Shown here in pieces: positions 6,571 through 35,861 of a DNA stretch of 36,592 bases. A program made the position numbers and the translations under genes. The DNA lies in contig JAAYEC010000038.1 in assembly GCA_012728915.1 (NCBI GenBank), positions 1-36,592 on the forward strand. The letters are read 5' to 3'. Origin of the DNA: Deltaproteobacteria bacterium (GTDB lineage Bacteria; Desulfobacterota; Syntrophia; Syntrophales; UBA2192). Position 1 is the first letter of the stretch. The number at the start of each line of letters is the position of its first letter. Under the pieces are notes generated by a model. The model saw only the letters and a list, made by a program, of their open reading frames with translations, did not search any database and had not been told where the DNA came from.

Positions 6571-6668
6571 TGGCGGAAGTGCATGGGAATCGAACCCACC
6601 TGGGAGGGTATCAGCCCCCCACACTGGATTTGAAGTCCAGGAGGCCCACCAGTGACCTGCGCACTTCC
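6571..6668 (-). tRNA. selC: tRNA-Sec (anticodon UCA)
   Basis: 98 nt including an encoded CCA end. The acceptor stem has the 8 base pairs characteristic of selenocysteine tRNA (GGAAGTGC with GCACTTCC) and discriminator G. The anticodon stem-loop CTGGA-CTTCAAA-TCCAG carries TCA, which decodes UGA. There is a long variable arm (a GGGGGG side against CCCTCCC) and a TTCGATT T-loop. These features together are specific to selC and exclude tRNA-Ser. The transcript needs SelA for Ser-to-Sec conversion and SelB for delivery; neither gene is in this window. Its presence shows the organism can probably read UGA as selenocysteine, which bears directly on the OsmC gene at 18822-19283. Confidence 0.97.
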
Positions 6669-18668: not shown

Positions 18669-18791
18669 TTTTGCAAAGGAGGGGGTGTTGCAATGTCATT
18701 GCGAGCGCAGCGAAGCAATCTTGGCCGGGTCACGGGGTTGACGCGTCGGGCTCGCAATGACGAGAGCCGATCATGACCCCGTCTCAAAGGG
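18669..18791. repeat. MITE-like palindromic element, copy 2 (inverted)
   Basis: About 120 bp between uvrA and the OsmC gene, in the opposite orientation to the copy at 9891-10043. It carries CAATGTCATTGCGAGC on one arm and GCTCGCAATGACGAGAGCC on the other, and GTCTCAAAGGG at the outer end. The 27-nt block 18750-18776 is the exact complement of 9909-9935. No gene lies in the 172-bp gap. Confidence 0.8.
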
Positions 18792-18821: not shown

Positions 18822-19283
18822 TCACGTTTCGAGGATCAACTCGTCTTGCAGCCGGATGCAGTCCTTGACGCTCTGGGCGGCGGGGCAGAGCGAGACGTAG
18901 TTCGCGAAGGCCTCCTTAGCGTCGGCCGCCTTCTCCTCGGGGCACTTCAGGTGCATCTTCACGCGAATCGTGGTAATCTTGAGGACGCCGCCCACATCCT
19001 CGATATCGCCCTCGACGTCGGCCCAGAAGAGTCTCTCGGGGGTGGGTATCTTCTTTCCGGCCATCACCATGGCCAGGGTGCCCATCATTCAGCCCGCGGT
19101 GGCGGCGACGATGTGATCGAGGGTTGCCGCGTGCTCCTTTTCGGGGTCGACCTTGTAGAACCGCCGGATCCCCCCGTGAACCCCGTAGTAGACGGGTTCG
19201 GAGAACCCTTCGATCTCGGCCCTGCGGGTGGGACCCGTCTGCCGGACAATCCTGATTTTCGAGGTGTGAACCACTTCGCCCAT
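18822..19283 (-). CDS. OsmC-family peroxiredoxin-like selenoprotein (UGA read as Sec65)
   Basis: Read with UGA as selenocysteine this is one 153-residue OsmC/Ohr-family protein; read conventionally it is two ORFs (19283 down to a TGA at 19089-19091, then 19088-18822) in the same frame. The N-terminal half ends AATLDHIVAATAG and the UGA follows at once, then MMGTLAMVMAGKKIPT. In OsmC proteins the peroxidatic cysteine sits exactly there (AxGxC before a hydrophobic helix). The second catalytic cysteine is kept at Cys133 (SLCPAAQS). The ATG at 19283 has a strong GGAGGA site 8 nt upstream; the second half has no ribosome site of its own. An 8-bp hairpin with a GGUG loop starts 12 nt after the UGA. 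Expected role: thiol-dependent reduction of organic or hydroperoxides in the cytoplasm. OsmC-like selenoproteins have been reported from metagenomes. A pseudogene is the alternative, but no other damage is visible. Confidence 0.85.
19057..19076 (-). promoter_or_regulatory. Candidate bacterial SECIS element
   Basis: On the minus strand CUGGCCAU (19069-19076) pairs with AUGGCCGG (19057-19064), 8 bp with one G-U wobble, closing the tetraloop GGUG (19065-19068). The stem starts 12 nt and the loop 20 nt after the in-frame UGA, inside the distance range known for bacterial SECIS, and the loop begins with G as SelB binding requires. It lies within the coding sequence, as bacterial SECIS elements do. 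Confidence 0.75.
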
Positions 19284-19454
19284 CGAGCTTTCCTCCTTCC
19301 CGTGTTCAGTCTCGATACCCTGTCTTGAAGAAAATTGCAATCGGACGCGGAGGCCCGTCCCCCTTCGGGAAGAACGCTGCGCCCGGATGAGCTCTCATGA
19401 TCCCGGCTTCCCGGGCTTCCCGGATCCGGCGATCGGACGCCGGCCCCGGAAGGC

Positions 19455-34475: not shown

Positions 34476-35861
34476 CACTGCTGTCCAAAATAACCTGAAA
34501 CGGGTTCAGTGACCCTTATAGAATCAGGGTTTTGGACGGATTCTTTGACATTTTCAAGGTCAGGTTGCTTTCTTCTTTTTTACCTCGTTCAGGATGCTGT
34601 CCAATTCAGCTCCGGCTGTTCCTGCAGAGAGACAACCGGCGGTGGCTCGTAGGGCTCATCGAGCCAGACCCACAAGTCCCGGTATGCAAAGAGGTTATAC
34701 CGCAACATGGCCACCAGGTTCGACAGCGACCACTGGTACTGGGAACGGTGCTTGAGGTACTTCAGCACGAGGATCGCGATCAATGCTGTCCAAATCTGGG
34801 TCAACAAGGCGTTGGCTGACGTGCCCACAAAGGTCTTGATCTTCAGGTTCTGCTTGATCGTCTTGAAAAAGATCTCGATCTGCCAGCGGTCCTTGTAGAT
34901 GGCCGCGATCGTCGTTGCCCCGAAGTCCATATGATTGGTCAGCAGCACGATGAGCTGTTCGTTCTCTGCATCCCAGACCTCCAGCCGTCTCAAGACGACG
35001 GGATACTTTTTGTGAGCGTAGAACCCTTCGAGCTCAATGAGCTGATCGCTCAGGATGTTCCGGTTGGTCGGAATCGCTCGTTGTTCCACAACCCGGTAAC
35101 GGGCATTGCCCTTTTGGCGGGTGACGAAGAAAACCCCGCCCTGGTTCCAGGACCAGAAGAGCGAGAAGTCGACATAGCCCTTGTCCACCACCACGATCGA
35201 ACCCGCGGGGAAGTTCAGCGTCCGGGCGATCCGAACCTCGTGGATCTTGCCGGTCGTGACACGGGCAAACACGGGCAAATAGCCGTCATGATCCAGCAGC
35301 AGGTGAAGCTTCACGGCCCCCTTGGTTCGTCGGTACTTGGCCCAGTCAAACAGAGAGGCGCACAGCGGGATGATCGAGGCATCGAGGCTGAAGAGCCGGT
35401 TCTTGAACCGGAACTTCCGTTTGCCGAACTCCAGTTGCCGGCAGCGGCCCAGGATCTGATAAAACAACTTCTCGTAGAGCTGCCAGGGACGATGCTCGTT
35501 CGCGTAGGCCAGGGTCGAGCGTTTCGGGACCGTTTGAATGCCCAAATGCCTGGCCTTGCCGAAACAACTGGCCAGGCTCCCGCAGATCTCCCGAAGGGAA
35601 TGGGCCTGCCACAGCTGGCAGAACATCATGGCCACGAACTGGTCCCAGCAACTGAACCCTTTGGCGTCTCGATCCGCTCGGGTGGCCTCCACGGCTTCAA
35701 AGAACTCGCGTCGCGGAAATAGGTGTAGAATATGACCGAAAATGCTGCTAAATCTGTTCATGAGGGTGCCGCCTTTCAGGATTGAATTTCTTCTCGCAGA
35801 GAAACTACTACCTGATCGTGTGCACCCTTTTCAATTACAAAAACCTATTTTGGACAGATGT
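34476..35861 (-). mobile_element. IS4-family insertion sequence, complete
   Basis: 1386 bp bounded by the 10-bp direct repeats GTTCAAATAT. Near the ends are inverted repeats CTGTCCAAAATA (34481-34492) and TATTTTGGACAG (35846-35857), 12 bp identical. One transposase gene fills the inside. Intact ends, duplication and transposase suggest a recent insertion that may still be mobile. It lies exactly where the GC-rich chromosome segment changes to AT-rich DNA. Confidence 0.88.
34589..35761 (-). CDS. IS4-family transposase
   Basis: 390-residue DDE transposase. A helical N-terminal domain of the DUF4372 type (HLFPRREFFEAVEATRADRD, then FSCWDQFVAMMFCQLWQAHS) precedes the catalytic core. The first Asp is in RLFSLDASIIPLC, the second in SIVVVDKGYVDF, and the glutamate in the YREK-like motif YKDRWQIEIFFKTIKQNLKI. 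All three acidic residues are present and the frame is intact. It cuts and moves the surrounding element by a cut-and-paste mechanism. Confidence 0.93.
   Translation of the reverse strand: MNRFSSIFGHILHLFPRREFFEAVEATRADRDAKGFSCWDQFVAMMFCQLWQAHSLREICGSLASCFGKARHLGIQTVPKRSTLAYANEHRPWQLYEKLFYQILGRCRQLEFGKRKFRFKNRLFSLDASIIPLCASLFDWAKYRRTKGAVKLHLLLDHDGYLPVFARVTTGKIHEVRIARTLNFPAGSIVVVDKGYVDFSLFWSWNQGGVFFVTRQKGNARYRVVEQRAIPTNRNILSDQLIELEGFYAHKKYPVVLRRLEVWDAENEQLIVLLTNHMDFGATTIAAIYKDRWQIEIFFKTIKQNLKIKTFVGTSANALLTQIWTALIAILVLKYLKHRSQYQWSLSNLVAMLRYNLFAYRDLWVWLDEPYEPPPVVSLQEQPELNWTAS

Follow-up and report, generated by a model that had tools for sequence, protein, structure and literature searches.

Whether a TGA codon in the middle of an otherwise open frame ends a protein or is read as selenocysteine (Sec) is the question raised by an OsmC-like gene in the window, the whole 36,592-nucleotide stretch of DNA that was analysed. 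The first-pass annotation of this stretch had described two open reading frames in the same frame, separated by a single TGA at 19089-19091. The observation is real, and the strand, which had been left unstated, is the minus strand: a frame of 153 codons plus a terminal TGA stop runs from 19283 to 18822, with a single internal TGA and, as had been claimed, no other lesion. Ordinary ORF calling lets the gene fall into pieces of 88 and 83 amino acids, the split that had been foreseen for routine annotation. The gene comprises the following elements:

18822..19283, minus strand: predicted OsmC-like selenoprotein gene (translation with TGA as U; Pfam OsmC; orthologues)
19089..19091, minus strand: in-frame TGA, predicted Sec65 (peroxidatic Cys column; TGA in 96/98, TGC in 2/98 distinct relatives)
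18822..18824, minus strand: terminal TGA stop of the OsmC-like gene (translation)
18885..18887, minus strand: Cys133 codon, presumed resolving cysteine (invariant in alignment A2; aligns with the second catalytic Cys (CP) of Ohr/OsmC)
18858..18860, minus strand: Cys142 codon (nearly invariant, at least 90% conserved in alignment A2)
19292..19298, minus strand: ribosome-binding site AAGGAGG, upstream of the ATG at 19283

Translated with TGA as U, the protein reads MGEVVHTSK...EHAATLDHIVAATAG-U-MMGTLAMVMAGKK...SLCPAAQSVKDC.... The codons for Cys133 (18887-18885) and Cys142 are both intact in the window gene, in agreement with the earlier statement that the resolving cysteine is preserved. That only one start possesses a ribosome site had also been stated correctly: AAGGAGG precedes the first ATG, and inspection of the sequence upstream of the ATG after the TGA revealed no such site in the window gene. 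A Shine-Dalgarno-like motif is found at M1 in all 148 loci checked, and before the UGA in 6 of these 148 (loci not de-duplicated).

The codon for residue 65 is TGA in 96 of 98 distinct coding sequences and TGC (Cys) in the other two, and the in-frame TGA is therefore not a chance occurrence. Distinct sequences rather than loci are the unit of this count; some loci represent one genome reached via two routes. UGA or Cys are thus the only states at a position where the first-pass annotation had placed the catalytic cysteine of the family. Within the window's own order, full-length read-through matches occur in 33 genomes, together with one fragment (G032), and each full-length copy carries a single TGA, except for two that lack it and have TGC at the same place. 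A scan of named bacterial genomes yielded 157 relatives, of which the 80 kept are all titled as metagenome-assembled genomes. Most are from Syntrophaceae or other 'Deltaproteobacteria'; a few carry titles naming Nitrospirota, Acidobacteria, Methylomirabilota, Dehalococcoidales or Abyssobacteria, and there is one Opitutaceae bin. This single Opitutaceae record gave no match to SelA, and its contig may have been mis-binned. Further relatives came from a phylum sample, the full-length ones again with one TGA each. A tblastn search of plasmids gave no match. Comparison of the window gene with eleven relatives gives dN/dS values of 0.07-0.27 after the UGA; the part beyond the apparent stop is therefore under protein-level selection, and purifying selection is seen on both sides of the TGA.

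Downstream of the UGA the transcript can fold into a hairpin of the type expected of a bacterial Sec insertion element (SECIS):

19057..19076, minus strand: SECIS-type hairpin, 8 bp, loop GGUG starting 20 nt after the UGA (fold and family conservation)

The fold of the window hairpin (19076-19057) has an energy of -14.1 kcal/mol and a z-score of -2.0, modest when taken alone. Across 90 distinct sequences the six core pairs are standard in 97% when the arms are in register, compared with 1-77% when one arm is slid, and 7 of the 90 carry U-A instead of C-G as the basal pair, a compensatory change; the other pairs show one-sided changes. The constraint also extends to synonymous positions, as the stem codons for Ala71 and Ala75 are GCC in 90/96 and 90/94 cases, respectively, versus 549/1225 (45%) of the Ala codons elsewhere in the same genes; in genes of low GC3 the corresponding figures are 20/22 and 21/22 versus 84/256 (all raw counts that ignore kinship). 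In a scan with a spacing window of 16-37 nt after the UGA, 76 of 79 distinct segments contain a hairpin whose loop lies 18-20 nt downstream of the UGA and has a G at loop position 1 or 2. A small apical loop bearing a G is a published feature of bacterial SECIS elements (PMC1088965). The stem is weaker in both Cys genes, where a mismatch interrupts it and its folding energy is -5.0 kcal/mol; the Sec genes average -11.5 kcal/mol. This conservation supports the view that the hairpin directs Sec insertion.

The window itself contains the tRNA that such decoding would employ:

6571..6668, minus strand: tRNA-Sec, anticodon TCA (ARAGORN 6571-6668; Rfam RF01852, 76.1 bits at 6575-6668)

The first-pass annotation had made its reading depend on selA, selB and selD, and the genome does encode SelA, SelB and SelD besides this tRNA. 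SelA was found in 13 of 14 carrier genomes tested, which are named under several phyla. Across the order it is present in 137 of 155 genomes, and because it is nearly universal there, its co-occurrence with the gene within the order is uninformative; three carriers of the gene without a SelA match are assemblies that are 77-88% complete. The SelD gene of the window genome (G000:C79:39544-40467, L191) contains one in-frame TGA, and its product is probably a selenoprotein too.

The protein was compared with profile models and structures. With C in the place of U it scores 42.4 bits against Pfam OsmC (PF02566; cut-off 27.5), and remains below the cut-offs of the NCBIfam models for OsmC (TIGR03562; 17.4 bits versus 85.8) and Ohr (TIGR03561; 12.4 bits versus 88.85), and thus appears to represent a third, OsmC-like branch. 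Alignment of the family profile to the structures 6d9n and 1nye puts U65 on the peroxidatic cysteine, where the first-pass annotation had expected it, and Cys133 on the second catalytic cysteine, with weak E-values (best 0.027); a single-sequence phmmer search of the PDB sequences found no OsmC match. The AlphaFold model has a mean pLDDT of 83.8, and the top rows of a Foldseek and VIA-align comparison are all OsmC/Ohr proteins with Z-scores of 8.8-12.8, versus 7.9 for unrelated SAM synthetases. The stretch with the Arg/Glu pair beside the peroxidatic Cys precedes the start of the HMM alignment and falls where the model is poorly predicted (residues 35-52). The OsmC fold and the placement of the catalytic residues are thus supported by computation.

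Taken together, the conserved UGA with Cys in the remaining sequences, the SECIS-type hairpin, the purifying selection and the Sec machinery uphold the earlier selenoprotein reading: the internal UGA is almost certainly read as Sec, and the locus is very probably best explained as one intact selenoprotein gene of the OsmC/Ohr/YhfA superfamily, whose product acts as a selenol/thiol redox enzyme. A true stop at the UGA, followed by reinitiation at the adjoining ATG ATG (TGAATGATG), would instead yield two polypeptides, that is a split OsmC, and UGAAUGAUG is indeed an attractive coupling site that is kept in most relatives. The Met pair, however, persists in the Cys genes as well, which have no stop to be bypassed, the codon right after the TGA is CTG in L135 and CTG or CTC in the deeper relatives L193 and L232, and 142 of 148 loci lack a ribosome site before the post-UGA start. 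As a split would moreover leave the synonymous constraint on the SECIS unexplained, we rejected reinitiation at ATG66 as very improbable. That the locus is a pseudogene, or an ordinary Cys OsmC gene with a sequencing error, would fit the two short ORFs that automatic annotation yields. This explanation is refuted by the recurrence of the same TGA in 96 distinct sequences from many assemblies, and low dN/dS on both sides of the TGA in a frame with no other lesion leaves it with hardly any probability. A genome-wide change of the code, with TGA specifying another amino acid in place of local Sec recoding, would likewise account for a tolerated in-frame TGA, but TGA terminates 11 of the 20 window genes checked, the OsmC-like gene among them, which shows the code to be unchanged; relatives carry Cys at the site, not Trp or Gly, and the Sec machinery is present, so that the chance of such a change is negligible.

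The peroxide reductase activity that had been claimed is less firmly indicated than Sec decoding itself. The gene's neighbours in the window, uvrA, a glutamine amidotransferase-like gene and a cytidylyltransferase-like (NadD-type) gene, are functionally uninformative, and there is no constant partner gene among the neighbours of its relatives, which in most cases, the window included, are not conserved. In six related Desulfobacterales loci (L124, L145, L148-L151) a rubrerythrin gene (92.4 bits) follows the OsmC-like gene at a distance of 0-48 bp, and a flavodoxin gene comes next. Judging from the fold, the two-cysteine layout and this partial operon link, a role in the reduction of peroxide or hydroperoxide is slightly favoured. 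A selenoprotein with another role, such as a disulfide reductase, a sulfur or selenium carrier or a repair enzyme, is a serious alternative of somewhat lower probability: the protein falls outside both the OsmC and the Ohr NCBIfam models, its neighbours vary, and YhfA-type proteins, which keep two cysteines without the Arg/Glu pair, are uncharacterised (PMC8945050). Against such a role speak the OsmC/Ohr fold with its two-cysteine layout and the rubrerythrin/flavodoxin operon in one clade. Two kinds of neighbours were seen besides. Upstream, an Rrf2-type regulator gene is oriented the same way, 13 bp (L129, L141) or 171 bp (L143) from the OsmC-like gene, and a second OsmC-domain gene is found on the opposite strand, adjoining or near the Cys or Sec gene; in L118 (also L116, L119) it lies downstream of the Cys gene and is an ordinary member of the family (Pfam, 53.9 bits).

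Under the favoured explanation, SelB and Sec-tRNA would decode the internal UGA as selenocysteine under guidance of the hairpin just downstream. The product would most likely be a selenol/thiol redox enzyme, presumably dimeric, in which Sec65 would attack a peroxide or a similar electrophile and Cys133 would then resolve Sec65 as a selenenyl-sulfide. A dithiol donor would re-reduce the selenenyl-sulfide; lipoyl(ated) or AhpD(-like) donors serve the Cys-containing OsmC and Ohr proteins (PMC8945050).

OsmC-like selenoproteins as such have been described before. They were reported in 2005 from the Sargasso Sea, with three sequences and the motif UxxT (PMC1088965), and were found again in the GOS data (PMC2398784); a 2026 inventory of 119 families and subfamilies lists OsmC-like once, as UxxT, with MCS5647933.1 as its representative (PMC13188914). 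The Sargasso/GOS protein (COG1765, PF02566) likewise combines an OsmC domain with Sec for the catalytic Cys and a bacterial SECIS, and was likewise predicted from sequence only. It differs in motif, with T at +3 (UxxT), whereas the family described here has UxxG, usually UMMGT with T at +4; every member listed carries G at +3 after Sec and none the known UxxT motif. The share of Sec forms differs as well, with 96 of 98 here versus 3 Sec against 10 Cys in the Sargasso table. The OsmC (TIGR03562) and Ohr (TIGR03561) hydroperoxide reductases share the fold, the resolving CP motif and the peroxidatic-Cys column with our protein, which has Sec in place of Cys and scores below both NCBIfam cut-offs. 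YhfA-type proteins (COG1765), to which it is likened by description, also have two conserved residues at the catalytic positions and stand outside OsmC and Ohr; the form found here is the Sec form. We did not find a UxxG OsmC-like family in the 2026 inventory (PMC13188914), although an earlier mention is possible in the 2007 Olavius or the 2025 Haft and Tolstoy papers. As the inventory counts different Sec motifs as distinct subfamilies (PMC13188914), the UxxG family likely constitutes a new OsmC-like selenoprotein subfamily, set apart from the listed UxxT by motif only.

A quick tree groups the two Cys genes with support and nests this pair within the Sec family, so that one change of state suffices; the history that best fits this topology has Sec as the older state in the family and Cys as the outcome of a single Sec-to-Cys reversion. 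A Cys copy and a Sec copy occur together in one bin (G061; L069/L116 and L065/L104), but at an estimated contamination of 6% these could derive from two organisms. Two deeper OsmC relatives, L193:3144-3608 and L232 (G179, G615), have an in-frame TGA in the motif ULTGT, in L232 followed by a hairpin, and could possibly form a second Sec branch. We consider it fairly probable that these genes make up an unlisted, ancestrally Sec-containing OsmC-like selenoprotein subfamily (UxxGT) that spans several phyla, almost wholly among uncultured bacteria, and includes both a deeper Sec branch with ULTGT and a single Sec-to-Cys reversion accompanied by a decaying SECIS.

OsmC-like selenoproteins, so far represented by a few marine fragments, thereby become a family that can be viewed in the context of whole genomes. 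Because no NCBIfam model matches above its cut-off, this redox gene of many uncultured bacteria is probably missing from annotations or split in them. The natural Sec/Cys pair in close relatives lets one ask what benefit selenium brings to an OsmC-type enzyme. Elsewhere in the window, the sequence CATTGCGAGCGCAGCGAAGCAATC at 18697-18720, between uvrA and the OsmC-like gene, is followed about 30 bp on by a GGCTCGCAATGACG stretch, and the two together look like an intergenic repeat element; at 34589-35761 on the minus strand lies an intact-looking transposase ORF with the domains DDE_Tnp_1 and DUF4372.
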